Origin: Muricea muricata
Taxonomy: Eukaryota; Cnidaria; Anthozoa; Malacalcyonacea; Plexauridae
NCBI GenBank assembly: GCA_963855995.1
Contig: OY979716.1
Span: 37,659,624 to 37,723,623, forward strand
Reading direction: 5' to 3'
DNA length: 64,000 nt
Below the pieces are notes generated by a model. That model ran no database searches. It worked only from the letters and a program-made list of their open reading frames with translations, and was not told the DNA's origin. Each line of letters begins with the position of its first letter. Position 1 is the first letter of the stretch. This document shows, piece after piece, positions 7,494 to 64,000 of this stretch. The position numbers were made by a program, and so were the translations under genes.

Positions 7494-9271
7494 TCAGTAT
7501 TCACCACAGACATATGTCTTGCCCTCTTGATGCTCTTGTTGGTCCTTCTTGGCTTTCCTCTCCCTCAATCCTTCTTGGTGGATTTCACGTTAGCCTTGGC
7601 GATGCGTTGCTTGTCATCTGAACGACTCCACACTAAGCAATGTTTACCTGGACTGATCCCCATCTTCTCCAAGGTCTGACAAGAAGCACTGGAACCATTG
7701 TTAAAATGAGAAATGGCATCATACACTCCCAGCTGAAACACTTCCAACTGAACGAACACCTGTTTTGGTAGGTAGTTCCAAATCATCCCATTGAGTGCTT
7801 CATTTTGATTCTGGGTTTTGCAATCCAGGCATTTAGCCAGCAGCTCGTCAGCACTCAACCTGGCGTAGATTGGCTTGATAGCAGTGACAAGAGGTAACCC
7901 TTTGTAACCCATGCTTGTAGTTCTTGGTTTCTTTAGCCCTGTCTCTCATGAAGCCACACCAACTGGATTCACCTGGTGGACAGTGGTTATGCCTGTTGTT
8001 CTTCTCTGAAGAAGCACAATGAAACAGACTGGCCAAAATGGATTTCTTCATGGCTGCTAAGTCACCAGGGTTACTCCTCACAGCAATGCCATAATAGTTT
8101 CAACTTATCAATAACTGTATCTGTGAGCTTGCCCTTTCCACCCGTGCCTTTGTTTTCCTTTCGAAACTTCCGTAGAGCTGTCCCAACCCTCTTTTGGACA
8201 TGGCCGACACATTCCTTCTTCAATACAGAGACACCATCATTACCAATATTGTAGACTTCTTGCACAACACCATGACTCTTACTGTCACCATCCCCAAAAT
8301 ATTCTGTGTAGCGAAGCTTGTTTGTTTCCACTGAGCGCTGGAAGATCCGCAAGGCACCTCAGGTTCCATGGCTGGTGCTGAACCCTTGAAATTGACCTTG
8401 CACTTAGACTTATAGTCAATTTTCCAGGCTATGTTTTCAGGTGTTTCCTCATCGTCTTCATGCTCTTTGCACTGCTTGCAAAATCTGCTCATCGCCCTGG
8501 TATCTAAAACTTTCCCAGTATCCATGGAAATGATAGTTACGCACCCATTCAATGAAAAGAATCCTTGTCGTTGCCAAGTACCATCGCAAGAAATGCCACA
8601 ATCAGCAACTTCACCCTGCTTTTCCTTTCAATGTGGTAATTTCCTTTGCAGCCTTGCTCATCCTTGTTCAGCCTTGCCTCAGCTTGGCAAACCTCGTTTG
8701 CAGCTTTCATCCGTCCTTTGTTGTGGGCCGAATAAGGTGATGCTCTGGGGATTGGTGGCATGTTCATCAACCCACAAAACCTTGCAGCAGCACCACCACC
8801 ACAACCAACAGACCTCATGGCATACACCAATCGCCTGTTTACTTCAAAGAAGCAACTGATTTTGGCTGAGGTGTTGAAATCTTGCTTCCATGAACATACC
8901 TGGCAATGCAGTTCCAAATTCGAGGCACATCCCTTGCGTATTTGAAGGTTTTCAGACAATGCTAATGTGAACTGTTTACATTCTTGACAAGGCAAGGTCT
9001 TGAAAATGCCAGAAAGGATTGACAAATCCATGAATCTATAGCCTGTTGGTTCTTCTTCAGTTTCTTCACTATTTATGGGCTCTGGTGTCTTGATTTTTCA
9101 TGCTGAGGCAGAAGGTTGTGGCGAACTTTCAGGTTCAGACATGATCTTGTTTTGAACATCATCACTCAAACAAGTAGTTTGAATATTTTCTTTGCGTTCT
9201 TTCTTTGTAAAATAGCGATTGCCACGAAACTGCCGCCGCTTTTTAACATAAGCCGAACGAGCCTTTGGCAT
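7494..9271 (-). pseudogene. Mutator-like DDE transposase, full length, frameshifted
   Basis: Starts at MPKARSAYVKKRRQFRGNRY (basic N-terminus). Next come CQECKQFTLALSE and CSWKQDFNTS (Cys pairs of a zinc ribbon), then FFEVNRRLVYAMRSVGCG. The first catalytic Asp lies in SCDGTWQRQGFFSLNG and the second in YFGDGDSKS. Also conserved are ECVGHVQKRVGTALRKFRK, SLFHCASSEK, HCPPGESSWC and KTQNQNEALNGMIW. This is the animal Mutator-like transposase domain family, about 590 residues. The frame is broken by a stop near 9098 and by several frameshifts (about 8600, 8340, 8090, 7880 and 7567). The true end, GKTYVCGEY and stop at 7494, is recovered after the last shift. Terminal repeats were not found with confidence. 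Confidence 0.88.
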
Positions 9272-10505
9272 TTTAGTAAAACCCGCTTAGTAATAACCAC
9301 AAAATACGAAAATATCTCTCTCCAAAAAATACACTGTCACTGTCACAAGATGGCTGCCGAAGTTTGTCTTTACAGGTTACCCAAATACTTCATATAAAAT
9401 GCGATATAACTGAGACATTTCTAACATTTAACGGGGGAAGGGGTGGGGAATATGTTTGGTTGAGCCATAAGACCATAAAACAAGCGTTTAATGGAGAATT
9501 TACAACAACAAACCGGTTGCTAATGACGTTGCTAAGCACACAAAAGTAAGAATTACAACTAAAACCACAATGTCCATGGAACACAAAAACACCAAATTTG
9601 AAAATTTCATAAAATTTTTGTGGAGTACCACCTTAAACAAGGCTGGGAATGTCAGTTTCTGTTTATATCATTTCAGGTAGTGAAAGATCTTATGTTTAGG
9701 AGTGCTTTTGACTGCATGAGCCGCGACACTAAAAACATTAGTTCGAGGTACGGTATTACAGTCAGCCGCTTTCGTTGACATGAGTTACCACTTGCAGTAT
9801 AACACTTGTTTTTATTAAATTGTCAAACTCTGCAAATTTGCAATTGTTTTGCAAACTATAATTAGCCATGAACATAAAGTAAAAACAAACAAAGGTTTAC
9901 AAAAACACTTCTAACCAGTCTTATAGCCTGTATTTTAAAACTAAATCAAGCCTAACTCTGCATGCACTTTATAAGCATTTATCCAAGGGAACACAGCAGA
10001 ATGCACTAAATATAGTACTGATTGATTTGTAGAATCTTACCTCTAGTATAAAAATAAGCTCTTCAGAATTCAATTTATTAAATCTCAAACCCCCATTTTA
10101 CATAAACGTTTGTAGAATTTTAATCCAAAATTCAGCATACTGACGAACTTGATTTACAACCTGTTGACAGTTAAATCGTTGTAAATTGTTTATATTTAAA
10201 AATTTTGTAAATTGGTTGTAAATTGTTTATATTTAAAAATACTGAAAAACCGCCAGCAGCTTGTTATGTTGTGCGGGCGCCAATGTGGAGAAGGAAGTGT
10301 AAAGTGAGAAAAGACGGGGAGTAAAACTCCTGCATTACAGCCAATCAGGAGGTAGTATTTCTTCTACCCATGCTCGTAGCAGTATCCTTGGTAACGGTTG
10401 AAAAAATATATGATAATTCATGCTAAGAATCTAATTATGCCAATATTTCGCAGGAAATTTACCTAATAACTAGCACTGTAATTACTGTTTAACAATTTGT
10501 AAAAT
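9272..10505. other. No gene; short repeat
   Basis: AT-rich. The stretch 9655-9760 resembles 43810-43915 (both contain atcatttcaggta, cttttgactgca and gttagttcga), so a dispersed repeat family has a copy in each place. A 26-bp sequence starting gttgtaaattgtttatattt occurs at 10178 and again at 10215. Confidence 0.4.
10178..10240. repeat. Direct repeat, two 26-bp copies 37 bp apart
   Basis: Two identical copies beginning gttgtaaattgtttatattt lie 37 bp apart, a small local duplication in AT-rich DNA upstream of the PIF1-like gene. Confidence 0.8.
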
Positions 10506-12213
10506 ATGTTAAATAAAAATCAAATGAAGGTTGAGAGGTTGATTTACCAGGGGTACAGTGTACTTATTACAGGAAAAGGTCGCAGCGGAAAGTCCTACTT
10601 TCTACACTCGATTTTAGAGAAATTGAGAGCAAGAGGAGATCATTGTTTTTTTACAGCGCTGACAGGTAAAGAGGCCATGAATGTTGGCGACGTGACCGTA
10701 AATCATTTCGCTGGAATCGGAACAGGTTCGAAGGGAGCTCATCAACTTATCGCTTGTATCCAGTCAAACGAGGAGGCTTTGAAAAGATGGCAAAGCTGCA
10801 ATGTATTGATCATCGACGCGGTCTCTATGCTCAGGAGAGAATTGTTCGAGAAACTCGAAATGATTGCAAGATGTCTGAAAGACAGCTCACAGTCATTTGG
10901 GAGCATTCAGTTGATATTTTCCAAAGATTTTTACCAGCTAAGACCAGTTATGCAAAGCTATGCCACCAATGAAAGTCTATTGTTTCGCTAGTCCTATGTG
11001 GGCTTCTTGTGTGGATGTGTGTGTTTTTAGATGAGAACTATCAGCAGTGTGATACTGACTTGATAGATATGCTTGATAACTTTTGTATGGGTGGTTGCCT
11101 CTCATCACACTCCCGTCTGCTGAATTGCGATCCTCTCGATATTGTCAGAATTACATTCGCATAGGGAGAGTGTAACACAAGCAAATGACGAGTGTCTGGC
11201 ACTAATACCAGGTAATATATATCAACTCATATTGGCTGATGATATAATATTTTTATATCATATTGTTTTGTAGAAATTTCCAGGTGTTTACAAATAATAA
11301 TCTACACAACTTTATAAAAATTCACTTCAAATTCATTACTGTATAAAAAAGGCAAAAAGCTGCTATAGTCACTGACCAGTGACTATCACTTCTTCAGACA
11401 CAGTGGATCTTGACCAATCGGAATGCAGGAAAATCAATAGTCACCTGGAAATTTATACTAATATGAATAGTCTGGGTATTAAAATTAACTGGATTTAATG
11501 GGAAACTAACCATTAATGCTCAGGTGTAGAGTGTTTTCCATGACATCAAAATATTCTTTCTATTGCAAAACATTCATTACAAGTATATTGATTTTATATG
11601 CAAGCACATTAGAATCGCCAATTGAGAGTCCTTGATTGATGCGTTCTGGTACACGAATCACACAACAACTTGTTTACATTATAGTAATATATAAATATAT
11701 CTATTAGGTCCATCACACCACTACTGCTCAAAGGATTATGGTGCAACCGATGCCTTGAAAAATTGCTCTGCACAAAGAAATTTGGTTGTTAAATTATATG
11801 CCAGGGTTGTTCTCCTTAAGAATTTGAACAATGAAGTAGTAAATGGACAATGTGGGACAATTAGTTCATTTATGGTGGTTTACCTTATGTTAGTTTTGAC
11901 AATGGCATAGTTCAAGTGAACTGTCTACTGTGGAAGTAGATGGCATTGTGGTGGCCAGTAGAAAGCAAGTACCATTAGACCTTGCATATGCTATTACCAT
12001 GCACAACAAAAGCCTTTTTGACTTTCTAGAAGTCGACTTATCAAGTGTCTTTGAACCAGGGCAAGCCTGTGTTGCTGTTTCGAGAGAAAGAACTGTTGAA
12101 GGACTGCAAATAAGAGCATGTCAAGAAATATTGCCTCAAATTGTTGTGGATTTTTATTCCAGTTGTATTGTCAAAGCTACCAAGTTAATTGTAGAAGATG
12201 TGCTAATGCCCTA
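10506..12213 (+). pseudogene. PIF1-like helicase relic with one recognisable intron
   Basis: Exon 1 starts MLNKNQMKVERLIYQGYSV and has a Walker A box GKGRSGKSYFL (normally GxAGTGKS), a Walker B box LIIDAVSML with the catalytic Glu replaced by Ala, and IQLIFSKDFYQLRPV (normally GDFxQLPPV). After stops from 10991 on, LHSHRESVTQANDECLALIP ends at a GT donor at 11212. The acceptor AG at 11706-11707 rejoins in frame to HYCSKDYGATDALKNCSAQR and KLYARVVLLKNLNNEVVNG. The C-terminal UvrD-like part, VFEPGQACVAVSRERTVEGL, closes the gene. PIF1 enzymes unwind DNA 5'-3'; stops and lost catalytic residues make this copy inactive. No Helitron Rep domain is seen nearby. Confidence 0.8.
11365..11386. repeat. 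22-bp palindrome inside the PIF1-like intron
   Basis: ATAGTCACTG and CAGTGACTAT are separated by two bases. It is followed within 40 bp by gaccaatcggaatgcagg, similar to the context of the palindrome at 5733. It is probably the end of a MITE within the intron. Confidence 0.6.
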
Positions 12214-15567: not shown

Positions 15568-18254
15568 CAGACTTGTCAAACTTTTTCAAGAAAAAACAGT
15601 GAGATTGTTTACAAAATAGTGAGACTATAAGAAAATGTGTTTTACTGCACCTTTTGTGTAATATTTTTGAAAGTACATACGATCTCAGTCAATCTGTATA
15701 CTGGTAGTAGTAGTAGTACTAGTAGTTTAACAAAGCAAAAAATAATGTATAGATTATAATTTAACTGTACCATACTATACACTACTGCACATTCAACTGT
15801 CTGTCAATTATTAACAGTTTCCACCACTTTAATCATGCTTTTTGTTATAAGTTATTGCAGCTTTTTTCGAATCTTTTAGGATTTGATCACTCGGCTTCCA
15901 CTTGTAAAATGGCGTGGATGCTTCTGGGTATTGGGACTTCATTGTCAAAATGCTTGACAAGGTGCCATCAAGCTTAAGTTTAGAAGGACTGTCCGTTTTG
16001 TTCTTTCGCACAATGCTAAAGAGTCTTTCTTGTTCAGCATTACTATGGGGAATGACAAGAACGATCTCGGCAACCTTTGAAAGTTGTCTGAAACGGCAGT
16101 TCGGGGGTGTTTCTCGAACTTTTAATTGGCCTAGATGCCACCATAGGATGTCCACTCTGTGACGAACAATTCCATTCCCATCTTCATCATAGTCATCGAT
16201 AACCTTTGCTTCTTCCCATACTTGTTTGCCAATACATTCATCAGTAAGGGTTTGATAATCTACAAATTCATCATAAAGTTCATCAAAGTTCATGTCCTGA
16301 AGCAATGGAAGAGAGGAAAATGTTTCCAGGAAGAACTGTACATGATCCCATCTTGCATCGATACGGTGCAATACATCTACCCAAACAGCATTACACAGCA
16401 CGTCATTATTAACTGGAAATTTTTCCAAAATGTATTTCTTAAAATAATGGTGGACAGCAGAATGTAACTTTTTGTAATCGGAGTCGCTAATTGTTCCATT
16501 ATTATGTAGCCGGTTGAGCGTAAACTTTGTGGTGCCACCTAAGAATAATGATTTTGGCTCCAAAAACATTTCTTCATTGTCAAGGTTGAGTTCAGCTATC
16601 GAACCTATATTTTTTCCAAGGGTCTCTATTGCTGGCTTGAGAACCGGGATAGTAGGCTCGTCTCTTTGTAAGAGAAGGTTAAAAGTTGTAAATAATGAAA
16701 TTGAAGATGTTTTAAAAAGCAGAGCAGGTTCCAGCAAGGGATTGTCAAAAACCTGGGACAACCTTTGAAATTGCTGATCAGTAGACTCTTCACTTGCAAA
16801 GTAAGATCTCAAACTAGGGAACTTTTTAAGAATTCTTTCCATGCAGCGTAATGATAACCATCGTACATGTAAATGTTTTAAGATTGCTTGATATTCCTGA
16901 TTACAAAACTCAAAGTACTCAAGCAGCTTTCCTTTTCGCTTTGAACTTTTTTCGAACCAATAAAAACAGTCTACGTAAAAATCTTCTACATTAAGTCCTA
17001 AAACATTGCTGAAGGCATTATTTGCATGGCTGGCTGCAATGTGTGAAAGATGACAGGGGCAATCGGCAATAAACATTTCTGGATTCTTCTCTAAAAAACG
17101 TGATGCTACAGAATCATTTCTTCCAATCATGGTATTTGTATTATCAATACTGAAACTAACACAGTTAGACCATGCATAGAATCTTTGGTGAATTTCTCAT
17201 CAATTGCTTCAAAAATTTTAAAAGCTTTGGCCCCATGTTCCTCTTCTGTCAAGCACATATCAAAAAAATGGTTGGTAACAGTTTTCAACCGATTAACATC
17301 CAAGATTCTTATGCTGACAGGGTTCATTTTTGGACACCTGTATCATTCGATCCATCTGTGCCAACACTATAAGGATGCGCTTTACAATGATCTACGATGT
17401 ACTTGTGACATTGAGGGGCCATAGCCTCATTCAGAATAGCAGCTGTTTTTGTTCTTCCACATGAATATAATGAGGCAATTGAGCTATCTGGAAATATTTG
17501 TTTAAAAAGAGGGCCAAGATGATCAGCGGTAGCTATGGGTAAATTATCCTGCATAAGAAAGTTCGTGACTTTTACTTTGGCGTTAGTTACCTTTTTTGAA
17601 TGGGTTGTTTCCTCATTTGATGCAAACCTAAGACTTTTCTGTTTCTTAAGTTGGCCTGGATTTTTCTTATGCATGTCTCTTTTGCAGTGCACCTTTACAT
17701 TGCCAAGACCTTGGTGGTGGTGTGATACGTTTTTGCTACAAAGAATGCAATGGAACTTGTGTTTATCACAAGGAACAGCTCGTATTGGAAAGTCTTTTTC
17801 CCATTCTGATTTGAATACAACTTTATACGTTGCAGCACCTTTATATTTCCGTTTTACCATGTCCTTTCGTATTACACTCTCTGATGAATCACTAACACAT
17901 TTAGTTTCACTATCGACCAATTTGTTTTGGCATGATTGAATATCAGCTACTGAAGCGGAACGTTTTGACATGGATGCCATTTTTATTTGCCTCATCTGCC
18001 CGACTAATTGTGTGTATGACTAATTTAATAAATTATGTATGTGTTAAAATAAATTAAAATTAACAGCCCGCTCAGAGTCCTAATGCAGGGCGTTGTGTAA
18101 TTGCGATCCTTATTTCTGTTATATAGTCTTGCACAAGCCAAAGCACTGTTTATTTTATGATTTATCGGGAGATTTAAGTGCAGAATCGTGAGACAGTGAG
18201 ATTGTTACGAAAATAGTGAGTCTCATGGTAAAACCGTAAGACTTGGCAAGTCTG
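15568..18254 (-). mobile_element. hAT element with terminal and subterminal repeats
   Basis: The left end is CAGACTTGTCAAA, and the complement of the right end is CAGACTTGCCAAGTC: short hAT-type inverted repeats starting CAG. Just inside each end is a direct copy of AGTGAGATTGTTT...AAATAGTGAG (15600 and 18194). The flanks are ataaaaag on the left and aaaaagtt on the right, so an 8-bp duplication is not exact. The 2.69-kb element contains a single minus-strand transposase frame spanning most of its length. Confidence 0.75.
15829..17995 (-). pseudogene. hAT family transposase with N-terminal zinc finger
   Basis: The N-terminus has a BED-like finger, CILCSKNVSHHHQG...HCKRDMHKK (Cys pair then His pair), then HPYSVGTDGSNDTGVQK with the first catalytic Asp. 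Two one-base frameshifts, at about 17327 and 17178, break the frame. Afterwards FIADCPCHLSHIAASHANNA, DCFYWFEKSSKRKGKLLEYF and HLHVRWLSLRCMERILKKFP follow the hAT core. The C-terminus has PHSNAEQERLFSIVRKNKT, the hAT dimerisation block. About 720 residues, otherwise uninterrupted, so this is one of the youngest coding relics of the window. It would cut and paste DNA through a DDE-type RNase H fold. Confidence 0.88.
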
Positions 18255-31441: not shown

Positions 31442-32249
31442 ATGGAGAATGGCGATGCCTCAGTACTTAGGGAAACAGTGGTAAATGTTGAGCCAAAAAA
31501 TGCAAGGTTTGTGTACCTCATAACCTACAGCCAAGCGGATTTATCTTTAGTTTGAGCGTGAGTCATTTGCAATATTAGTTATACACGCATTTCAGTACGC
31601 GGATCCTTTGTTAGCCTGCAATATTTTGCAATGGGTTTGCAGCATGGAGCATCATAGTGACGGTGGAGCTCATTATCATATGGCCGTTAAACTGGAATCA
31701 CGAAGTCGTTGGTTGAAATTTAGAAATTTCCTTGATACTACCCATGGCATAAAAGTAAACTTCAGCGGCGCTCACATGAATTATTATTCTGCATCGCTTT
31801 ATGCTACGAAAGACGACAAGGAATATATACAGTCGTGGAATCATCCTGATCTGACGAATGGCGATTTTCCAGTCACAACAAATGCCAGTTTGCGTGTGCA
31901 AAGTAACACTGTAGATGGTGAACCCAGTCATGATTCTGAAGGTGCGAATGGTCAAAAGCGAAAACGTAAGAGGATGAGCATTTTTGATGTGTCGCAGCTT
32001 GCAGTTTCAAAAAAAATACGAACCCGGCTAGAACTTCTAGCGTTTGCAAATCAGCAGAAGAGAGAAGGAAAAAGTGATTTGGCCATGTTCATTGCTAATC
32101 GTGGATCAAAAGCAGTTGAGAAAGCTTTAAACGTTGGCTGGGAATTAGAAGTGGCGGAAAAAAGGCTGGAAAGGTCGAGGCTTACCCGAATTGAAGTTCT
32201 CGAGAAAAAGTTAGAAGAACAGTGTGTAGAAAGGTGCCTAGGAAAATAA
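31442..32249 (+). pseudogene. HUH endonuclease (Rep-like) gene
   Basis: A first piece from 31442 contains RFVYLITYSQADL, like motif I of rolling-circle Rep proteins. After a break near 31545-31595 (stop, or a very short intron with GTGAGT and TTTCAG) the main frame has HYHMAVKL, the His-hydrophobic-His metal-binding motif, and YYSASLYATKDDKEY, which supplies the Tyr/Lys nicking motif. A basic patch QKRKRKRM and a helical region with FANQQKREGKSDLAMF follow. HUH enzymes nick single-stranded DNA and stay attached through Tyr. The family resembles CRESS-DNA Rep proteins but is amplified in invertebrate genomes. The SF3 helicase ORF starts 6 bp after its stop. Confidence 0.75.
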
Positions 32250-35774: not shown

Positions 35775-36181
35775 TTATGCCCCTCCCTTCCTCCCTCCCC
35801 TCGAATCACAAATCCCAGGTAGACCATAAAGACCATCAAGACCATCATCGTTTAATGGATGGCAATTATCACTAAGATAGCGAAGATTTTCTTTTGATAG
35901 ATCAAGGTTTATTGCTGGTACAGAAACCTGGTAATCTTCATCCTCAAGTGACAATGGCCCGTCGGGATCAAATCCGAAGTATGCCATGTCATCTTCAGAT
36001 AGAATACTATCCACTCCAGTATGCCCACTGTACATGTTCTGTAATGTACCTTGTACGAACATTTGAAGTGGGGATAAATTATTTTCTGTAGAAATTGGGT
36101 GATTATTCCATTGAGAAACAAACTCTTCAAGAGATTTATTAATTCTTGGAATATACACAAAGTGTAATGCATAAAGATGTA

Positions 36182-37203
36182 CAATGGGTGGACAAAAAAA
36201 ACTGGCCCCCCATTATAATACGGTTGTTGTGTATAAAAGACAAAAAGTTCCAAAACAATTCAGAAATATATATGGTGCCGTCCAGATAAATAGCAAATAA
36301 CATTATTTAAGTGTCAATTTTACTACTTAGCATTAAAAAATGTATTAATCGGTTAAATACTGAACTTGTTTCAAAGTTGTGTTTCAATGTATGAGGGTGT
36401 TTGTCGTTAAATGGTGTTGGCAATCTGCATAGGGTAAAGGGTATTTTGACTGAGCCAGAATATCGGAAAATTTTGATTCATCATCTGGTTCCATTAGCCA
36501 ATCGATTAAACTCTGAAGGCTTTATCTTCCAACAAGATAACAACCCTAAACACACTAGTAACATTGCTAAAAAATACCTTCAAAATAAGAAGATAGAAGT
36601 GATGAATTGGCAACCCCAATCACCGGATTTAAATCCGATTGAAAATTTATGGGGTCAACTCAATCGCTTAACTCAAGATCGCAATCCACAAAATGAAGAT
36701 GAGCTTTTTGACATTCTGAAACATGCTTAGTACTCCATGCCTGATGAATACCTGCATAACCTTGTTGAAAGCATGCCGAGTAGGTGCAAAGCAGTTATTA
36801 AATCTAAGAGATGGCCAACCAAATATTAACAAATGTTTTTGACAATGTGAGAAATGCATAGACATCTTGTAGTTGGTGAAGTGTTCGTGTTATGTAAGAC
36901 TTTAACACACTGTCCATAATTACTACATTTAAAAAAATGTGTTCAGTTTCTTTATACTTCCAATGATTGCTTTGTTGTGTAATTTTCATATAAAATTAAC
37001 GCTTAAATTATGTGATTTGCCACATACTGTTTAGTACCATGACTATTTATGAATTGTTTGTTGTCCTTCATTGTTTCTTATACATCATATATACCAATAC
37101 CATATTTATGAATTGTTTGTTACCTTTATTGTTTGTTATACATCGTATATACCAATACCAGTATTATAATTGGAGGGGGCCACTTTTGTTTGTCCACCCA
37201 TTG
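36182..37203 (+). mobile_element. Tc1/mariner element with TA target duplication
   Basis: The ends CAATGGGTGGACAAA and its complement TTTGTCCACCCATTG are flanked by TA at 36180-36181 and 37204-37205. Inverted repeats extend about 45 bp (tggcccccc and ttataatac). It interrupts the integrase gene. At 1022 bp it is shorter than an autonomous Tc1 element, the 5' half of the transposase being deleted. Confidence 0.92.
36401..36829 (+). pseudogene. Tc1 transposase, C-terminal half
   Basis: FIFQQDNNPKHTSNIAKKYL holds the second catalytic Asp and PQSPDLNPIENLWGQLNRLT the third acidic residue, both classic Tc1 blocks. After LKHA a TAG at 36728 interrupts, then MPDEYLHNLVESMPSRCKAV and IKSKRWPTKY finish the family's normal C-terminus. 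The DNA-binding half and first Asp are absent. It lies entirely within the TA-flanked element. Confidence 0.9.
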
Positions 37204-48404: not shown

Positions 48405-48888
48405 TGGGCAGAGATCGCTGTGAAGTCATGTAATGACATCACCAATACGATGACGTCATGACGTCATCATAGCATTAACCTTATTGCTGCATTTGAGCTC
48501 TACTGCTGTTTTGCCCAATATCAGGACTCATCAGCATGCTTAGGAAAGGCATAGAAGAAACGAATCTTACACACAAACATTTTCGTTTCTTGTTTGTTTC
48601 TTTTTTGACCTTCAAAATCTCATACACTTACAATAAGTCACTCACAACTAGCTGGCACGCTATTTCATACTCTATGTTGACTGCCTTATTAGGAACAAAG
48701 GGACTGTTGTGACTAAATATTGTTTATGTTTGCATGACACCAACATGGTCCCTAATACCTATTTGAGTATTGTTTTTACTTTCCCTAACTCATGCATTTA
48801 CAACAAGTCATACAGACTTGGCTTTCATGCTATACCATACTTCATATTGTAGCTACTGCCTCATTACAAACATAGAGACTATTAGTGA

Positions 48889-49896
48889 AAAAGGTGAAAC
48901 GTTCTCTGACTAAAATATATTTATTTGTTTACGAGCTTTCGGCCACCAGTCTGTAGCCTTCAACAGGTATAATTACAATGATTATAAATTGCAAAAGTGT
49001 CAAATGAAGCTAAATATGACATGTATACAAGTGCACTGTGAAATATGATAAGGTGATACTACATTTTCTTTACTAGGATTGTATATTGTCGAGGAAGCGG
49101 TTTCGAGTTATTATCAGCATTCCTGTCTTTGGCTGTATGCCATGATTCTAGAGTTAGGCGACTACGGAAATTCCCTGTGTTAATGATTTTCGCGTTGTCA
49201 AAATCAATTACATGATCATTGTCCCATGCATGTTTCGCTATGTTTGAACCATTATTATGTTTCTTAACGTTTCTGATGTTTTCAGCTTTTCTTGTTTTCA
49301 GAGATCTGCCTGTTTCCCCCACGTAATTCCAAGCACAGTCTTTACACGGTATTTTATAAATGACATTGTTTCTTTCTTCGGTTGGTGGTCTATATTTCAC
49401 GGAGGGAAATTCTTGTTCTAGGGTTCTCAAAGGTTTATTGCAGACTTTTATATTATATTTCTTCAGGGTTCTTGTTAGGGGTTCTGTGATACCTTTGATA
49501 TACGGCAGTGTGGCATATCCAGCGTAGGGTTTCAGAAGGTTCAATTGGTTCAAAGAATGATCTCACTAACTCTTCAGGGCTTGGTGTAGCTTTCTCAGTT
49601 TGGGATTTTATTACTTTTGAAATAACAGTTTTCGGGTATCCATTCGATTCGAGGGCTGCGCTTACGTGTTGTAACTCTTTCAATTTGCCATCTTCGGTGA
49701 TAGGAAGGTTTAAGGACCTATTGATCAGAGTGTTGGTAGTGCTAATTTTGTGTTTCAAGTCGTGGTGTGAAGCATAGTTCAAGTAGCGGTCTCTATGGGT
49801 TGACTTACGGTAAACGTGGATAGAAATAGAATTATTTCGTCTAGATATTAACATGTCAAGGAAAGTGATTTGTTGATCTTTCTCATGTTCTATAGT
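48889..49896 (-). mobile_element. Penelope-like element, truncated copy A
   Basis: Minus-strand copy truncated at its 5' end. The remaining RT C-terminal region includes LISRRNNSISIHVYRKSTHR and PYAGYATLPYIKGITEPLTR, joined by a frameshift near 49500. The GIY-YIG endonuclease has VIYKIPCKDCAWNYVGETGR (GIY-YIG equivalent and catalytic Arg). The 3' UTR ends ...acgtttcacctttttcact. It is placed tail-out against copy B, with the junction at about 49896. Confidence 0.9.
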
Positions 49897-51105
49897 TCAT
49901 GGATGTGCAATGGGCAGTCCTGTTAGTGCCATTGTCGCAAACTTATGCATGGAAGTAATTCAAGAACAAGCGATCCAATCCGCTACAACGCCACCTAAGA
50001 CTTGGAAACGCTTTGTTGACAACAGTTTTGCCATTATAAATAAGAACGCTATCACTAGCTTCCATGACACACTTAATTCAATTGACCCACACATTAAGTT
50101 TACTATAGAACATGAGAAAGATCAACAAATCGCTTTCCTTGACATGTTAATATCTAGACGAAATAATTCTATTTCTATCCACATTTACCGTAAGCCAACC
50201 CATACAGACCGCTACTTGGACTATGCTTCACACCACGACTTGAAACACAAAATTAGCACTGCCAACACTCTGATCAATAGGTCCTTAAGCCTTCCTACCA
50301 CCGAAGACGGCAAATTGAACGAGTTACAACACGTAAGCGCAGCCCTCGAATCAAATGGATACTCGAAAACTATTATTTCAAAAGTAATAAAATCCCAAAC
50401 TGAGAAAGCTACACCAAGCCCTGAAGAGTTAGTGAGATCATTCTTTGAACTAATTGAACCTTCTGAACCCTACGCTGGATATGCCACACTGCCATATATC
50501 AAAGGTATCACAAAACCCCTAACAAGAACCCTGAAGAAACATAATATAAAAGTCAGCAATAAACCTTTGAGAACCCTAGAACAAGAATTTCCCTCGGTGA
50601 AATATAGACCACCAACCGAAGAAAGAAACAACGTCATTTATAAAAGACTGTCCTTGGAATTACGTGGGGGAAACAGGCAGATCTCTGAAAACAAGGAAAG
50701 CTGAACACATCAGAAACGTTAAGAAAGATAATAATGGTTCAAACATAGCGAAACATGAATGGGACAATGATGTAATTGATTTTGACAACGCGAAAATCAT
50801 TGACACAGGGAATTTCCGTAGTCGCCTAACTCTAGAATCATGGCATACAGCCAAAGACAGGATTGCTGATAATAACTCGAAACCGCTTCCTCGACAATAT
50901 ACAATCCTAGTAAAGAAAATGTAGTATCACCTTATCATATTTCACAGTGCACTTGTATACACGTCATATTTAGCTTCGTTTGACACTTTTGCAATTTATA
51001 ATCATTGTAATTATACCCGTTGAAGGCTACAGACTGGTGGCCGAAAGCTCGTAAACAAATAAATATATTTTCGTCAAAGAACGTTTCACCTTTTTCACTT
51101 ATGTC
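49897..51105 (+). mobile_element. Penelope-like element, copy B
   Basis: Plus-strand copy starting MGSPVSAIVANLCMEVIQEQ (RT motif 4 region). The catalytic box reads FVDNSFAI where PLEs have (Y/F)VDD, so one Asp is changed to Asn. QQIAFLDMLISRRNNSISIH follows, then VIYK, a one-base shift at about 50650, and YVGETGR-like VGETGRSLKTRKAEHIRNVK of the GIY-YIG endonuclease. The frame ends PRQYTILVKKM at 50924 and the 3' UTR continues to about 51105. The 5' half with RT motifs 1-3 is missing. Identity to copy A is about 95 percent. Confidence 0.92.
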
Positions 51106-51239
51106 TAATCCTGGCTACTCATCTATGATTTTTAAGAGACATGGTTCCTATTTACTATTTGAGTATTTCTATTACTAGATAATGTTTTTACCTTCCCTGT
51201 CTCATAGATTTACATTTGGTCACTCAGGCCTAACTCACA

Positions 51240-51380
51240 TGCCAGGGCGCATTTGAAGTCCCGTACGCCGAAGATCTTCGGCGTGGGGTTTCAAAAATCA
51301 TAATGTAATTTATTTATAATAAAAGCCGGCGTACAATCATTAATCTTCGGCGTGAACTTTACACAGAATGCACCCTGGCT
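51240..51380. repeat. Short insertion absent from the opposite arm
   Basis: Within the left arm, gtcccgtacgccgaagatct ... aatcttcggcgtgaacttta (palindromic GCCGAAGATCTTCGGC and ATCTTCGGCGT) has no counterpart in the right arm, where gcctgagtgac and gcatgcgagttaggc adjoin. It is a small foldback insertion flanked by catgccagggcgc and tgcaccctggctcgcatg. Confidence 0.55.
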
Positions 51381-51813
51381 CGCATGCTATATCATATATT
51401 TCATATTACATGGAGACTGCCCCATTATGAACAAAGAGACTGTTGTCACAAAATATTGTTTTATTTTGCTAGACACCAATATGTTTTCTATCATCTATTA
51501 TTAAATACTAAATAATGAGGATAAAAAAGTAAAGGAACAAAATGATTAGACTAAAAGGCTTTACCAGGTTGAACTCTACCTTCAAAACAAAACAACAGGT
51601 GAATTGCATCTAAAGCTATATTGTGATTATGCTGGCGTGGTTTAATTAGGCGGTTAAAAAGCAATTTATATTACAGCTCCCCACAATCAGGGTAGTAGAT
51701 ATGTATATTTGTACCTAAAACAGATGAAAGACCCAAAATGCATAGAAATGATGACCACTTGTGACTACCACAATTCAAAATAGCCTCTTTCCACACTAAG
51801 TCATCTTAAGTTA

Positions 51814-52784
51814 CAGGAGGTTGCCAAAAAAAAGAGCCCCTTCAAAAATGGCTTACTTGGTTTATAATGACTATGAATAAAGAGAATGTTAACAAAAGTT
51901 GTGTTTTTGTACTTACATAGGTACCTGTGTGTAAGTACAAACAATAATTGCAATTCTTACTCACATGGGTGAAAAATAGGTGCATTTGGTTAGTTTTTAA
52001 AATAAATTCAAAATGGCGGTTTTAAATTAGAAACTTGCTAATGCAGTTGAATTATTTCTTCAGTACGTGTCTTCTTTGCATTAATTGTTCATAAACAACA
52101 AGGTGGGATGTGTCGATAAATGTATGCAAATTATTACTTTCACGCAGAAATTTTTTTGTAGCTTTTTCCTCGACCATGAGGTAGATTTTTACTTCAAAAA
52201 CTCTAATCCAGAAATCAAAAACCAAATGTTTATGATTGCTTGTTTCAAGACCCAGATTTTTTGTTAAAACAGCATTTGGATTACTCTATGTCTACATCAG
52301 GTACCGATATATCACACGATAGGTCAACCAACTGATTAAACGTAAAGTATAAGTGTGGCCTTGGAGTTAACTCTGCTGATAATAGAAGCACCTGCCTAAA
52401 TGAATCGCATTCTAGTTGCGCATTCTTTTAAAGACACCATTGTGCACATGAAATAATTACATTACCTATTACGCTACAATGTGCTTTCACATTTCGACCC
52501 ACATTACTGAGTAATTTTTAAATTTGAACGTATTTTTTGGCAAAGACTTTAATCATATTGCTGAATTTTAGGTTCAAAATGGCCATCTTTAATTTGGTTT
52601 AAAACTCATTAAATGGATCTGTTAATAAATATGTAAGTAAGAATTGCAATTAATGCTTGTTCTTACACACAGGTACCTATAAAGTACAAAAACACAACTT
52701 TTGTTAAAATTCTCCCTATTTATAGTCATTATAAACCAGGTAAGCCATTTTTGAAGGGGGCTCCTTTTTTTTGGCAACCCCCTG
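51814..52784. mobile_element. 971-bp MITE with TA duplication; empty site in opposite arm
   Basis: The ends CAGGAGGTTGCCAAAAAAAA and the complement of GGCAACCCCCTG form inverted repeats that continue more than 100 bp (ggcttacttggtttataatg, cacaacttttgttaa). TA flanks both ends (51812-51813, 52785-52786). The matching site in the right arm near 54975 has a single TA and no element. The TA target suggests a mariner-type MITE. Confidence 0.9.
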
Positions 52785-53290
52785 TAGATTATTATTCAAA
52801 CAATCTTTGGACACATACAAGGTAGAAGATTTTTAAGGTAATAATAGTACTTAACATGCTCTTTCATAGCAGACAAAAAAAAGGGTATTGTGAATAAAAA
52901 TTAGCATGAATGTAAAGCTCGAGAAAGTTAAAATTCTCAAAGGTTGAACTACACTATTATTGCCTACCAGTACGGCAATACCAAAGACACAGAACTGTAA
53001 AGACAATCACCAGAGACATCAGATCTAATAGAAATATTCCAAAATAAATAATGTCACTTATCTGTATAGTACAGTAAAACACTGCATAAAAGAACCAGTT
53101 AATTTTGACTTCAGGCTGAAGTGTTTCTTGACTAGTTCTTTTTTCCAGCCAAAAACAATTGTTCCTGGTATAGAGTTTTAAACCTCTTATTATATAAAAT
53201 GTGTTGAATACATTAATAAGAAGATTAATTATGTTGTGAATTGATTGCTGTTTTGATAAAACATATGCATGCAGGATTTGGTTGAAACAA

Positions 53291-54444
53291 GGGCAGATCT
53301 AGGGGTGGTCAAAGCGGTCACGCGACTCATGTAAAAAATGCGCAGGTAATCAATATTCAAAGTTAGTCCAGTTAATTACTTTTCATGCAGCGGCAGCGGT
53401 GTAATAATTGACATTCTAGTCCAGTTAATTAAATTCGTTCAGTGGCACAACTTTGGTAAAGCAATACTATCAAGTGATGGTAATGGTAATTTTGCCTGGT
53501 CACATGTTAAATTCTAGCTATTGGATTGGATCTCCATGGAGTCTGCCATTTTGACCGATCCTTGCGGGGGTCTGACCGGTTTGTGCAATCAGTGAGTCTT
53601 CTAATTGGATGATTAAAAAAAATTATCCATTGCTATTGGCTAAGAATTCTTGACCGGTCATGACCATATATGTCAATGGCCATGACCGATTTGCGTGTCG
53701 CAATGCAAATATACTGAGCCTTAGAAAAGTATTTACACCTCGAATGAAGGGTAAAATTCAATGTTTGCACTCTTCACAAGAGCTTTTGGCAAATGTGGTG
53801 TATTCACCTGACCACGCTTTAGCTAGAAACTTTGGAGCCGAAAGTTACGTGGCCAAAAATGCTCGTAAAGGAAAGAACGAAGCGTGTACTGTTATAAGGT
53901 AAGCTGGGAAATAATACTTTGTTTATGTGCTATTTATAGTTATACAATTATTGTTGATTTGCAGTGTGAAATATGGACAACTTTTGTTCGTATATATAGC
54001 ATATTGATATATTTGCATATACTTGCGTTGGGTGCAAAGGACAACTTGATTTCAAAACAATGTTGTGTACTTTATTAACTTATGTTGTAAACTTTGTAAA
54101 ATCACTGGAATGCAATCTAAAATTTTAAATCACAACACGACAGTGTGTTATATTGTGTATATTGCCATTTATGAACCAAATTTCTGTTGATCTATTTAAT
54201 AGTATTTATTTCTGAAATATGACATTGCCTATGGTATTATTGAATACAGTAAAACCCCACATAAAAGAACCAGTAGGTTAAGAACCACCAGCCTGAAATT
54301 TAGGCAAATGGGTACCTAAAAAAAGAACCACTTCAGGCTGACAAATCAAACTGGTTCTTAAAAATCCTTGTTAAACTTTTAGCTGAAATAGGTGCTAATC
54401 GTGTACTAGGAAGAAAACAAAGTACCGTGATCTTGCCAGCAGGA
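53291..54444 (+). other. Centre of the large inverted repeat, one exon-like ORF
   Basis: A plus-strand frame at 53660-53902 reads MTIYVNGHDRFACRNANILS, then KVFTPRMKGKIQCLHSSQEL and FGAESYVAKNARKGKNEACT, followed by GTAAGC. It is protein-like and not recognised. Diverged copies of acataaaagaaccag occur at 53088, 54262 and (inverted) 54680. No other gene. Confidence 0.4.
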
Positions 54445-55863
54445 ATTGTCATTCAACCACATCCTGCATGCATATGTTTTATCAAAACAGCAATCAATTC
54501 ACAACATAATGAATCTTCATAATGTATTCAACACATTTTGTACAATAAGAGGTTTAAAACTCTATACCAGGAACAATTGTTTTTGGCTGGAAATAAGAAC
54601 CAGTCAAGAACCACTTCAGCCTGATTTCTTTTCTAAGTACCTGTTATATAAGAAACACTTGCCTGAAGTTAAAATTAACTGGTTCTTTTATGTGGGGTTC
54701 TACTGTACTATACAGATAAGTGACATTATTTATTTTGGAATATTTCTACTAGATCTAATGTCTGTGGTGATTGTCTTTACAGTTCTGTGTCTTTGGTACT
54801 GGTAGGCAATAACAGTTTAGTTCAACCTTTGAGAATTTTAACTTCCTTGAGCTTTACATTCATGTTAATTTTTATTCACAACACCCTTTTTTTCTCTGCT
54901 ATGAAAGAGCATGGTAAGTACTACTATTGCCTTAAAAATCTTCTACCCTATATGTGTCCAAAGATTGGATAGTAATCTAACTTGGTGATGACTTAGTGAG
55001 GAAAGAGCCAAGAGGCTATTTTGAATTGTAGTAGTAACAAGTGGTCATCATTTCTATGCATTTTGGGTCTTTCATCTGTTTTAGGACCCTGATTGTGGTA
55101 AGCTGTAATATAAATTGCTTTTTAACCGCCTAATTAAACCTTGCCAGCATAATCACAATATAGCTTTAGATGCAATTCACCTGTTGTTGTTTTTTTTTGA
55201 AGGTAGAGTTCAACCTGGTAAAACCTTTTAGCCTAATCATTTTGTTCCTTTACTTTTTTATCCTCACTATTTAGTATTTAATAATAGATGACAGAAAACA
55301 TATTGGTGTCTAGCAAAATAAAACAATATTTTGTTCATAATGGGGCAGTCTCCATGTAATATGAAATATGATATAGCATGCGAGTTAGGCCTGAGTGACC
55401 AAATGTAAATCTATGAGACAGGGAAGGAATATCTAGTAATAGAAATAAATATTTAATAGGAACCATATTGGTATCTTGTATAATGGACAATTTTTTGTAA
55501 CAATAGTCTCTATGTTTGTAATGAGGCAGTTACTACAATATGAAGTATGGTATAGCATGAAAGCTGGGTCTATATGACGTGTTGTAAATGTATGAGTTAG
55601 GGAAGGTAAAAACAATATTCAAATAGGTAATAGGGACCATGTTGGTGTCTTGCAAACAGATATTTTAGTAACAGCAGTCCCTTTGTTCCTAACATAGTTA
55701 ATATAATGGGAGGGTTTGGAAGGCTAGGTCACGTGTCAAAATATGTCGTGTTTTCTCTGACGTCACAGTCATAGTGCACATCTGCTATCAATTTAGTAAA
55801 GAATATTATGCAAATGTGCAGTCCATTTTGTTACAAATGTGAGTTTTGCGTAGTTTTTCGAAG

Positions 55864-56507
55864 ATGCCTGGTGCAAACTGCTTTATTTTTGGCTGCGGAA
55901 CTAATAGACGACATATTGGAGTAGGGGGTTTTAGGATTCCGGCAGCAAAAGACGAGAAATCGAAAGAAATCCGTAACCCGTGGATAAAGGTCGTCGCACG
56001 AGATCGTGTTGTTGATGAGAATTTTCGTAGACAAATCGATTCTGGCAACTTGTATGTACGCGAGAGACATTTTAAGAAAGGGGAAATCGATTGTAGTGAG
56101 TATTAAGCAATTTTCTCCGTCCATTATGTATTATTTTTAATCCAGAATAAGACAAACCGAACGGGACATGTTGCGTATTAAACAATGCTTCATTGTTGAC
56201 ACAATTCATGAATATGTATATGTGGAATACCTCAATAATATGATTTTTCAAGTTAAGTTCTGTAGGATATATTATGAAACTGTTTCGAGAACATATTCAT
56301 ATAGCATATTAATTTAGACTTTGTCCATTCTTTACAGATGGTAAGCGTAAACGCCTTGTTGTTGGGTCCATTCCGACACAAAACCTGCCAGTAAAAAGCA
56401 TTTCGCCTTCTCCTGATTCAGTGTCAGTGATGAACCTTTGCCAAAACGTAACTCAAGCAAAAAACAGTCATAAGAATGGAACATTCGTTTTTCCTATTAT
56501 TTTGTAG
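55864..56507 (+). pseudogene. THAP-domain protein gene
   Basis: Exon 1 starts MPGANCFIFGCGTNRRH (C2 of the C2CH zinc finger), then GGFRIPAA (AVPTIF-like position shifted), RNPWIKVVARDRVV with the conserved Trp, and LYVRERHFKKGEID with the C-terminal His. A GTGAGT donor near 56095 joins the acceptor before 56339 to give IDCNGKRKRLVVGSIPTQNL, the usual basic tail with the PTxNLP box. About 140 residues are seen before a stop. It would bind the element's ends. I see no damage in this short gene, so it may be intact as far as visible. It converges on the minus-strand gene. Confidence 0.8.
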
Positions 56508-57050
56508 ATGGTGGCAAATTGGCATTGGCAATAAGTGGCATCTGTTTATAACAAAATGCTAATGGCTGGTTTACACTATCAATCTTTTTGTGACCAAGGT
56601 ATAGTTTGGTGACAGTATATTTAAATATATATGGTAATTCAACCCCATTGCTATTTTGAAGTTCTGTGACTGAAGACATTCAACACAAACTTTTGTCACA
56701 GAAAGTTTGGCTGTGTAAACCAGGCAGGTATTGTTTATTATTGCACAGCAAATTTCCCAAGGGCAATAAAAATGTTGATTATATAGATACTATTTGCAAA
56801 ATACTTGCTCTAAAACAAGTAAACAAATTCATTGCCTTTTGGAAATTTCTTGAGGCAGTATTTTAACTTGTTTTTGAACAAACTACACAATTTAAATGAT
56901 ATGTGACACATCTGTAAATAATCATGTTGTGAGTAATGTAAATATAATTAAGAAACAATAACTAGATGGTATGATTCATAACTTACTTTATTCAGTATAT
57001 CTATATACAGTATCATGGCTAGAAATTTGCCAGGCAGGAAACAAATTCGT

Positions 57051-57199
57051 GCTATAAATATGATGGCCCAACATATAAATATGATGGCCCAAAAGATATC
57101 TTAAGTTAGAGACGAAACGTTACTTAATAATTTTTTTTATATATTTACTGGTTTTATGGCTTTGCTAAAAGTTATATGTTGGGCCATCATATTTATAGC
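57051..57199. mobile_element. 149-bp MITE inside the P-like element
   Basis: GCTATAAATATGATGGCCCA and then ACATATAA at the left are exactly complementary to the right end. A partial third copy of acatataaatatgatggccc follows the left arm. It lies between the two convergent genes. Confidence 0.85.
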
Positions 57200-57261
57200 A
57201 AGAATATCTATATACATAGTTAACAATTTATAAAATGTTAGAATGAATACAAAGTCTATTG

Positions 57262-58558
57262 TTACTCACTGTTTTTCTTCAATTCTTTTCGCAAAGCTTT
57301 CTTCTTAGGTGCATTTGTGCTAAGTTTATATTTATTAACAATATCTTTTGCAAATGAAAAGCATCTAATTTTTATGTACAATTTAATAAAATTTTCCAAA
57401 TACAATGACTTACATTCTTTAGAAATCTCATTGTCACAATTGTCTATAATATTGTCCCACAAGCCATTAACAGATGCCAAAGATAAAACTTCATTTACCA
57501 TTGTTTCAACTGGAAGGTGTGTGATCATTCCTTTATCAGTACTGTTTTTAAATATCAATTCACATGCTTCAGCTATATCAATTCACATGCTTCAGCTATG
57601 CTAACAATCCAAGGATGGGGTGACCAGAGTCCACCTCTTGAAAGTGAAGCAATATACGGGTTGAGATCATCATCAACTCTCATTGATAGCATCAGTGCCT
57701 GGATTTCTTTATTTCTTGCTGAATCACATTGTCGGCAGTTTTTGCTCTTCTGGTAAAGTGAGCATACAATATAGCCTGATAAATATGCCAAAGGACCAAA
57801 CTCCTCAGGTTACAAAGACATATGTTCTTTCTTCTAAAATTAAAAATGAATATACTGTAGTTTTATATTTGTTTCTCTTTTTACTCATACCAATAGAGGT
57901 TATCAACTATGTTGTAAATACAGAAGCTGCCCTTTTTTAACCAATATTAATTTGTCTTTCAGTCTTTGACACTCTAGTTTCCTATGGGTTGCCAAAGGCT
58001 CTATTTTTATGCTTAAATTATTTATGAAAATTTATGTTTAGTTGGAATATATTCTAATTCTATACCTTAGCACTTGATGTATCTTTACAAATGACTCACT
58101 GGGTTTAAGCTTCAAGACCTCTGTAATATGTTCTTTTTTGTAAAGCTTTTCATCCGTCAAGTGTTGATCAGTATCACTGATCAATATTAACTTTCTCAGA
58201 TGAAACAATCTGCATAGGTTCAGGAAGAGAACGAGAACTGTGGCCTTGTTCAGATGGGTGTTTGTTGTTTTGATGTCTTGTCAGGCCGCCTTTAGATTTG
58301 CAAACTTTGCTGCAAAAATCGCAAGGAAATTGCTTTCTGCCCTCAACCTTAAAAAAAAGCAGCGTTCAAATAATAAGAATTTCATCGCACTTAAATGGTG
58401 AAAGTATTTAAAATAGTTTTTCAGTACCTCCTCAAGTGAGTCCTGAACTTCGACCTCAATTTCTTGCGTATGTAGTCCAAGTAAAGCGATCGTCCGTTGA
58501 AAACCGGCTTCTTGCTCCAAAATATCGCCGCAAACACCTGTCCCTTCCATATCTAGCA
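57262..58558 (-). pseudogene. C2H2-finger protein with unclassified C-terminal domain
   Basis: Minus-strand exon 1 reads MLDMEGTGVCGDILEQEAGF and GLHTQEIEVEVQDSLEEV. Next comes a C2H2 finger FPCDFCSKVCKSKGGLTRHQ followed by NNKH near 58330-58260. After a poorly readable stretch come LSGYIVCSLYQKSKNCRQCD, MRVDDDLNPYIASLSRGGLW and, following an exact 23-bp tandem duplication (57554-57599) that shifts the frame, MITHLPVETMVNEVLSLASV and LYIKIRCFSFAKDIVNKYKL. The C-terminal blocks look like the all-helical end of P/THAP9-type or related transposases. No DDE triad is identifiable. It runs towards the THAP gene. Confidence 0.6.
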
Positions 58559-59250
58559 ATACTATGCGTTGCGTTGAAAAAATTTTGACAATAAACGTTT
58601 ATTTCACGCACTTGGCGAGACAATCCGCTGTATCTGTAGTTGTATTGTAACATGATACTATGATACACGATACTCCATACGCATAAACAGGAGCAACAAA
58701 AGGCCCTTCGCGAGTAAAAATTATTTCTGAACATCCCTTTAATATACGCAGACTATGATCAATCTTCGTATTTTTTAGGAGATTCGTAAAACCATAAAAA
58801 AAGTCGTATTTTGAAATGGTTTCTATAAGATTGTATTACAAAATCACTCATTTGTGCACTATATCAGGTCACGTGGGGTACTTCACAACATATTTTAACA
58901 AAGGTCGCGTGTCCCTTTGATATTTACCGGCCTTCCAAACCCTCCCATATATTAACTATGTTCCTAATGAGGCAGTCAACATAGAGTATGAAATAGCATG
59001 CCAGCTAGTTGCGAGTGACTTATTGTAAGTGTATGAGATTTTGAAGGTCAAAAAATAAACAAACAAAAAAGAGAAAGCTTGTGTGTCAGATCGTTTCTTT
59101 ATGCCTTTCCTAAGCATGCTGATGAGTCCTGATATTGAGCAAAACAGCAGTAGAGCTCAAATGCGGCTGTAACAAAGTTAATGCTAATATGATGATGTTA
59201 TGACGTCATGGTATTGGTGACGTCATTACAAAGGAAATTGCTGCCCGAGA

Positions 59251-61739: not shown

Positions 61740-62300
61740 TGAAAGTTGTTAACAAGTGATTTATTTGTTGACTCAAATGGTATCGTTGCATTCACATGCT
61801 TTAATGCATTTTTTTTCAGCCATTTTGCACGGACATCTGTGTGTTGCACACTTTCCAGAGCAGTCACATTTAATTTCTGTGACTTTGTTGGCAGGCTTAG
61901 TAAATCTGCTATGGTGGTTAGCAACTTTTTCTTGCTTTGTTTGTGGCTGCTTGCCTTCAAGATACTTTTTAACCAAAGAGCAAGGCTCTTTTGGAAGCAG
62001 CCCCTCTGCATGACATTTAGCTTTGAGAAGGTTGTTGAATTCTTTCCTTAACCTGGTAGCTTCAGATTGGATTGACACTTTGTATTCTATAAATTGTTTA
62101 ACGAGGTTTGGTCATATTTTGAAAAGTCACCTATCAACAGGGAATAATACTGGTAACTTACGGTGGGTTGGACATTCCTTTATTGGTCTTGCCACTGCCT
62201 TTTCACCACCATGGGCCTTTGGATAAACAACAAGCCATTGATCACTTCCTTGCTTTGTCTTAGCTTGTTTTCTGGCAGAATTCTCATTATAATGAAGGTT
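61740..62300 (-). pseudogene. Cys-rich transposon-type protein, 3' exons
   Basis: Minus-strand exon 62300-62165 reads ENSARKQAKTKQGSDQWLVV, YPKAHGGEKAVARPIKECPT and ends HR before GTAAGT. The next exon, from about 62085, reads QSEATRLRKEFNNLLKAKCH, AEGLLPKEPCSLVKKYLEGK and finally IKCDCSGKCATHRCPCKMAE with KKCIKAC, a dense Cys cluster of the type C-terminal in some integrase/KRBA2-like proteins. A stop follows ECNDTI. Only the C-terminal part is seen. Its exons are also present in the adjacent duplicate. Confidence 0.5.
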
Positions 62301-62822
62301 CGAGCAAAAAAGCCTGCATGAAAAGATCAATGTTTGAAAAGATAGGTTTTGTGACTTTGTTGGCAGGCTTAGTAAATCTGCTATGGCGGTTAGCAACTTT
62401 TTCTTGCTTTGTTTGTGGCTGCTTGCCTTCAAGATACTTTTTAACCAAAGAGCAAGGCTCTTTTGGAAGCAGCCCCTCTGCATGACATTTAGCTTTGAGA
62501 AGGTTGTTGAATTCTTTCCTTAACCTGGGAGCTTCAGATTGGATTGACACTATGTATTCTATAAATTGTTTAACGAGGTTTGGTCATATTTTGAAAAGTC
62601 ACCTATCAACAGGGAATAATACTGGTAACTTACGGTGGGTTGGACATTCCTTTATTGGTCTTGCCACTGCCTTTTCACCACCATGGGCCTTTGGATAAAC
62701 AACAAGCCATTGATCACTTCCTTGCTTTGTCTTAGCTTGTTTTCTGGCAGAATTCTCATTATAATGAAGGTTCGAGCAAAAAAGCCTGCATGAAAAGATC
62801 AATGTTTGAAAAGATAGGTTTT
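61879..62822. repeat. 472-bp tandem duplication
   Basis: 61879-62350 and 62351-62822 are nearly identical (differences such as ctatggtgg/ctatggcgg and acctggtagc/acctgggagc). The unit begins gtgactttgttggcaggctt and ends gaaaagataggtttt. It duplicates two exons of the minus-strand Cys-rich gene but not the Cys-cluster end. Confidence 0.97.
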
Positions 62823-64000
62823 GTATTATATATGTATTCTAAACAATGCTTTTATAATGAATTGTCATGGCAATTTAACAAACCTTGCCATCAGTGAGCG
62901 GTAAGGGTAAAATTTTTTTTTGGTGCAAACTGGTTATCCAGTGAATGTTTAGCCTCCAGTGCCGATGTTTGGTGATAGTTAGATACTTTACGAATTGCGG
63001 AGATGAACCGTGGTCTAGTGAGAATTTGTTTCAATTTCTTAAATGCTGCTGAGCCTAAGAAGACATGGACATTCATTGTTCAGTTAAACTGTGTTACATT
63101 ATTAACCATTGTAGCAACTGAATCATGGACTGCAGAGTCACAGCATACCACTGCAAAGCGTCATTTCAGGGAATGCCCCACCCCCACTTTTGAATACCCT
63201 CCGCAGGCCCTGATTCAGTTGGTACAATGGTTAATAAGGTAACACACAGAATTACTTGCTGACAGCATTAGCATTTTAGCTATGCTATTGTAACTGCATG
63301 AAAAAAAAGATTTAGCTGCTACCATCCATTCTCTTTCTATAACCTCATGAGTGCACTATCTAAAAATTTTGTTTTCCTTATGGCAGTGTATGTTAACAAT
63401 ATGATTTAGAAGACTTAGCCACTTCTCTTTCTTTGGGTGATGTGCTTGATATTGCAACCCTGTAAATGTTGATGATAGACTATGAAAGAAGAAAACATTT
63501 CTATGTAGCATTTATGATGATATACATTTATTGATGATATACATGTAATCTAAAATAAAACATTTTTTCTGCCAAATTTTACCCCTATCCAAGGCTTTAT
63601 AGCACAAAATTTCATTGTTTTAGTCACTTTCAGAAGCCGCTTTTTCTTTCCTGTGAACAAACTAAGAAATAAATGCATTACATGAAAAGCTGTTATCCTG
63701 TGTCTGCAGGGATAAGCAAGGTTACAACTAAATGTGGCAATAGTATTACCCACTAAACCTCATAAATTATTCGAAATTTAGTTCGATATTTATATTACAG
63801 TTACCCCTAGCCAAATGCCAAACATCTTATGCATGGTCAATATCAGGATTTTCTTCTGCCAATTAAGAAGTAACCTGCGTATGTCTGTCTGTTATAACTT
63901 TGGAGATGTTACTATTAGCATCATGCAGGTAAGCAAGTTGCCTTTTTAATGCCTCCAATTCCATTGCATTGGAATTTTTTACTTCTGTGTTCTGAAGCAG
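62823..64000. other. No gene recognised
   Basis: A plus-strand frame at 63003-63242 ends QALIQLVQWLIR before GTAACA and might be an exon, but no domain is known. The remainder is AT-rich. Confidence 0.35.

Follow-up and report, generated by a model that had tools for sequence, protein, structure and literature searches.

The complete P-superfamily DNA transposons of the coral Muricea muricata probably encode a split transposase, which consists of a catalytic subunit and a second subunit, encoded on the opposite strand, that joins a C2H2 finger to the C-terminal domain (CTD) of the enzyme. The element in the window (the 64,000 nucleotides of contig OY979716.1 analysed here) would be a derivative of these transposons. 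The arrangement of the two genes, its conservation, selection on the second gene and the homology of the CTD are well supported; we infer an assembly of the two proteins in trans, a need for both in transposition, a regulatory switch and the reading of a CACGTG motif. Whether this is an animal P lineage with an obligate two-protein transposase, where the CTD was detached, fused to a C2H2 finger that perhaps reads CACGTG, and placed on a convergent gene, we consider evenly balanced.

The window element spans positions 55693-58960 (3268 bp), as defined by its terminal inverted repeats (TIRs), a target site duplication (TSD) and an empty site. An initial sequence-only reading had proposed one P-like mobile unit at 55693..58959, and its matched ends, TTCCTAA duplication and empty site in the other arm are all confirmed, as is the left coordinate; the right end lies one base further out. 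The TIRs of 31/32 bp (55693-55724 versus 58930-58960) share 31 matching positions with a single 1-nt indel, and their alignment score of 55 compares with at most 27 in 200 shuffles. When the flanks are joined and aligned to 48429-48883, the alignment runs across the junction (415 identities in 447 aligned bases, 15 gap positions), and this empty site contains just one TTCCTAA. Ends and duplication, together with the THAP, RNase H and GTP-binding domains of its relatives, assign the element to the P superfamily. Its features are:

55686..55692, no strand: left TSD, TTCCTAA, also present as a single copy in the empty site (reverse complement of 48429-48883)
55693..55724, plus: left TIR, CATAGTTAATATAATGGGAGGGTTTGGAAGGC; other copies have nearly identical ends
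55730..55735, no strand: left subterminal CACGTG, candidate protein-binding site
55864..56095, plus: THAP exon 1 (PF05485, 26.3 bits), third zinc Cys replaced by Arg; predicted splice donor
56338..56507, plus: truncated exon 2, the start of the transposase exon fused over the deletion to the tail region; predicted acceptor
56413..56414, no strand: deletion junction, where 2314 bp of the longer relative L031 are absent (approximately transposase codons 38-808 of 829)
57262..57820, minus: exon 3 of the C2H2-CTD gene, P-transposase-like CTD; predicted 5' boundary
58066..58347, minus: exon 2 of the C2H2-CTD gene, which encodes the C2H2 finger and the helical middle part; predicted splice sites
58428..58550, minus: exon 1 of the C2H2-CTD gene, which encodes the acidic N-terminus; predicted boundaries
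58870..58875, no strand: right subterminal CACGTG
58930..58960, minus: right TIR, from the end alignment
58961..58967, no strand: right TSD, TTCCTAA
48429..48883, minus: empty site, where the flanks recur in inverted form and lack the element

One arm of a large inverted repeat (48429-59230) contains the element, and therefore the flanks of the element are present twice, head to head. The repeat comprises a 1-kb segment (48876-49896 and 50102-51106, 95% identical) and several shorter arms. Inverted copies of one open frame lie at 49877-50704 and 49059-49896 (minus); by eye the frame resembles Penelope-like reverse transcriptase/GIY-YIG sequence, and Pfam gave no match to the plus copy at a threshold of E 0.01. 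Elsewhere in the window, matches to a PIF1-like helicase (10503-10988), a Mutator-like transposase (8552-9097, minus), a hAT dimerisation domain (15832-17196, minus) and an integrase core (35778-36212, minus) show that it holds several other mobile elements. An open frame with an HYHMAV motif (31551-32246) weakly matches a replication-associated Rep family (E 0.0092, under the cut-off) and is possibly an HUH-type element. A near-perfect (99%) 472-bp tandem duplication at 61878-62824 overlaps minus-strand open frames.

A search with the left end, in line with the suggested use of the terminal repeats, retrieved three longer relatives, L031 (6149 bp), L032 (6883 bp) and L040 (6100 bp), which have the same ends and about 2.3 kb extra at the junction. 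L031 harbours an 829-aa ORF with RNase H (PF21787, 88.7 bits) and GTP-binding (PF21788, 67.2 bits) domains, which aligns to the Drosophila P transposase structure (E 1.4e-24). The catalytic residues D230 and E531 of P are aligned in L031, the middle D falling outside the aligned blocks, and a DGASPN motif is present in L031 and in the distant copy L042. A helix-turn-helix (HTH) match is weak (PF12017, 13.7 bits; cut-off 23), and the region aligns to residues 137-240 of 6p5a_A. The THAP domain lies on the preceding exon 1 (38.6 bits; cut-off 23.9), predicted to be spliced to the 829-aa ORF. The transposase frames of L032 and L040 are broken.

THAP and RNase H are thus encoded together in the complete relatives, given the predicted splice, and the proposal that THAP is split from the transposase does not hold. 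The window copy is therefore a broken, non-autonomous deletion derivative of an element with an ordinary THAP-RNase H protein, which is half of the scenario that had been named as a refutation; the other half, an unrelated insertion, is not what we find. The observation that no DDE core is visible in the window copy was correct: none was found, 2314 bp of L031 being absent at 56413|56414, and the loss is a deletion because L031 encodes an ordinary THAP/RNase H/GTP-binding P transposase. The THAP gene had been called seemingly intact, which fails at the third zinc ligand, although the exon scores above the Pfam THAP cut-off of 23.9 bits. The minus-strand C2H2 gene had been recognised rightly in that the finger is seen, though its match (21.6 bits) stays under the Pfam cut-off of 25.2; the gene itself is broken. 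Compared with L031, its exon 2 contains a 2-bp gap and lacks 184 bp at 58082|58083, and a 23-bp tandem duplication (57552-57597) breaks the frame of exon 3. Lacking the core, one THAP zinc ligand and a functional second gene, the window copy would move only with the help of complete copies.

The transposase ORF stops about 40 aa past RNase H in all four members aligned, and that of L053 ends before a convergent C2H2-CTD gene. A CTD profile run against eight elements matched on the opposite strand only in six and gave no match in two. As far as the predicted proteins of the complete relatives tell, RNase H and the CTD do not share one polypeptide there as they do in Drosophila-type P. At three transposase places (G000:C2:54269067, C10:4769167 and C1:37766941) open frames of 958-1029 codons are longer than the exon of L031, and a similar long frame at C1:114872488 (1252 codons) ends before a convergent C2H2-CTD gene.

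Both genes are kept across copies. In the complete relatives the C2H2 gene is enclosed by the element ends, and each of three distant test copies (L041, L042, L043) has a convergent transposase; in L041 and L043, 30-bp inverted ends and 7-bp TSDs surround both genes, while L042 was read without both ends. At genome scale, 62 rows merged into 54 transposase places (55 of 1177 candidates scored). A first intersection, with a limit of 8 kb, placed a convergent C2H2-CTD gene 0.4-3.5 kb downstream in 37 of the 54, versus 0.13 pairings expected if places were evenly spread, and no listed C2H2-CTD place occurred within 8 kb in any other layout. A second C2H2 query added four places (41/54), including a broken convergent gene in the flanks of the initially unpaired L050, and one further convergent gene at 10 kb; the flank of L053 brought the total to 42 of 54. 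No C2H2-CTD gene was found within 3.1 kb of flank at L052. Seen from the C2H2 side, a listed transposase accompanies at least 37 of 139 merged places, with 55 of 1177 transposase candidates scored.

The C2H2-CTD gene is abundant, with 432 candidates in the genome (150 scored) and many open frames of 370-450 codons. The minus-strand protein, which was to be checked for an RNase H fold, instead matches the C-terminal domain of the transposase: its CTD hits one of 177,635 PDB sequences, the CTD of the P superfamily, and in the fold comparison nearly its whole length superposes on the P transposase CTD; the PF12596 match stays under its cut-off. Homology of the C-terminal half of this protein to the P transposase CTD is well supported. 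The suggested split, convergent design accordingly stands with regard to two convergent genes in a non-classic layout and shifts with regard to the split point: the part split off is the C-terminus of the transposase, not the THAP domain. On a phage-like contig (L051:4294-4797), a small protein has a single, very similar C2H2 finger (CKSKAGL) without a CTD.

According to the account in PMC7776569, Drosophila P elements make repressors from the same locus. The C2H2-CTD protein might likewise be a transposon-encoded repressor or regulator, a decoy for the transposase complex or the ends, with the 829-aa transposase acting alone. Convergent genes could moreover regulate one another by antisense transcription, and gene 2 is under less constraint than gene 1 in the comparison of L031 with L040 (dN/dS about 0.2 versus 0.08), an order that is reversed in that of L031 with L032 (0.23 versus 0.51). 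Yet we regard this reading as unlikely, for the catalytic protein stops before the CTD in the four aligned members and L053, and something would then have to stand in for a domain that in P touches transposon as well as target DNA. The dN/dS values also give good support to purifying selection on gene 2. That the C2H2 gene is cargo or a host gene captured once, its CTD-like helical fold arising by chance and without a role in transposition, is very improbable in view of this selection, the sole PDB match being the CTD of the same superfamily, the superposition over nearly the whole domain and an association that persists in copies with CTDs of about 40% identity to one another.

In the split transposase that we favour, gene 1 (plus) would provide a catalytic subunit comprising THAP, the HTH region and RNase H with its GTP-binding insertion, and the convergent gene 2 (minus) a C2H2-finger protein whose C-terminal half corresponds to the P transposase CTD. 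Both proteins would meet on the transposon ends and rebuild the transposase in trans. A CTD that already touches another subunit via a loose linker would be well placed to turn into a separate protein. The catalytic subunit alone would be like the 66-kDa repressor of Drosophila, from which the C-terminal third is missing, and because of this resemblance gene 2 expression could serve as an on switch. If this is true, transposition would depend on the expression of two genes, as it does on alternative splicing in Drosophila P. A CTD that works in trans would make the P transposase a natural two-component enzyme, whose assembly and regulation, and the contribution of its CTD, could be probed by supplying or withholding one of the proteins; it would also reveal a route from a single-chain transposase to subunits that gain a new DNA-reading finger, and a new way to build and control a well-known DNA-cutting machine.

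CACGTG occurs in both subterminal regions of all seven elements examined (at 38-78 from the 5' end and 51-97 from the 3' end), five of which have the ends of one family and do not count as independent cases. Internally the motif is absent from six elements and found once in L043. As a candidate binding site, CACGTG may be read by either the THAP domain or the C2H2 finger.

Within the host genome (453 Mb, 74 contigs), a search at the DNA level, with the left end as query, yielded at least 42 matches (40 of 47 candidates scored), and 20 places were fetched with their surroundings in stretches of up to 9.9 kb. Both ends were covered in 13 of the fetched copies, short and long alike; an exact 7-bp TSD flanks 12 of these, and L036 matches in 6 of 7 letters. 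The junction of the window copy (element positions 721|722) is read through in ten of the 20 (L021-L030), and a single deletion therefore founded a short family that spread. L021 and L022 have identical flanks and duplication about 0.72 Mb apart and are not independent insertions; given the shared flanks and TSD, the genome stretch itself was duplicated. It is least probable of all that the short element is a KP-like repressor, whose THAP-only protein binds the ends without cutting: the internal deletion retains the THAP exon, the derivative has spread in those ten copies, and KP and other small P elements code for repressors in the account of PMC7776569, but the Arg at the third zinc Cys, a presumed loss of function, recurs in the window copy and eight fetched short copies (L021-L026, L028, L029; L027 and L030 keep the Cys), the THAP exon of L024, L026 and L029 has stops or frame breaks, and no working THAP domain is predicted for the truncated protein.

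The P element is among the best-studied eukaryotic transposons. The elements described here resemble Drosophila P (6p5a/6pe2) in the THAP domain, the RNase H interrupted by a GTP-binding domain, inverted ends of about 31 bp, two aligned catalytic residues and a CTD that matches in sequence profile and fold. In Drosophila P, as described, a single gene encodes the whole polypeptide, CTD included, and the duplication is 8 bp long (PMC7776569), whereas the CTD here is joined to a C2H2 finger and encoded by a separate convergent gene, and the TSD is 7 bp. A description of a split P transposase was not found in the literature searched, including PMC7776569, PMC10027918 and PMC4168063; the search covered few subscription journals, and Repbase, where prior notice is possible, lay outside it. 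Galileo, as far as these accounts go, shares TSDs of mostly 7 bp, but has one transposase ORF of 905 aa (PMC4168063) and unusually long inverted ends (PMC3688188), in contrast to the short ends and two genes found here. Like KP and other internally deleted P elements, the window copy retains the THAP exon and both ends around an internal deletion; unlike KP, its THAP zinc site is broken and it carries the remains of a second gene. The second ORF of PIF/Harbinger and Pong elements is a DNA-binding accessory protein. These elements likewise are DNA transposons that carry a further ORF beside the transposase (PMC5543537), yet that of the Muricea elements would be a detached piece of the transposase itself.
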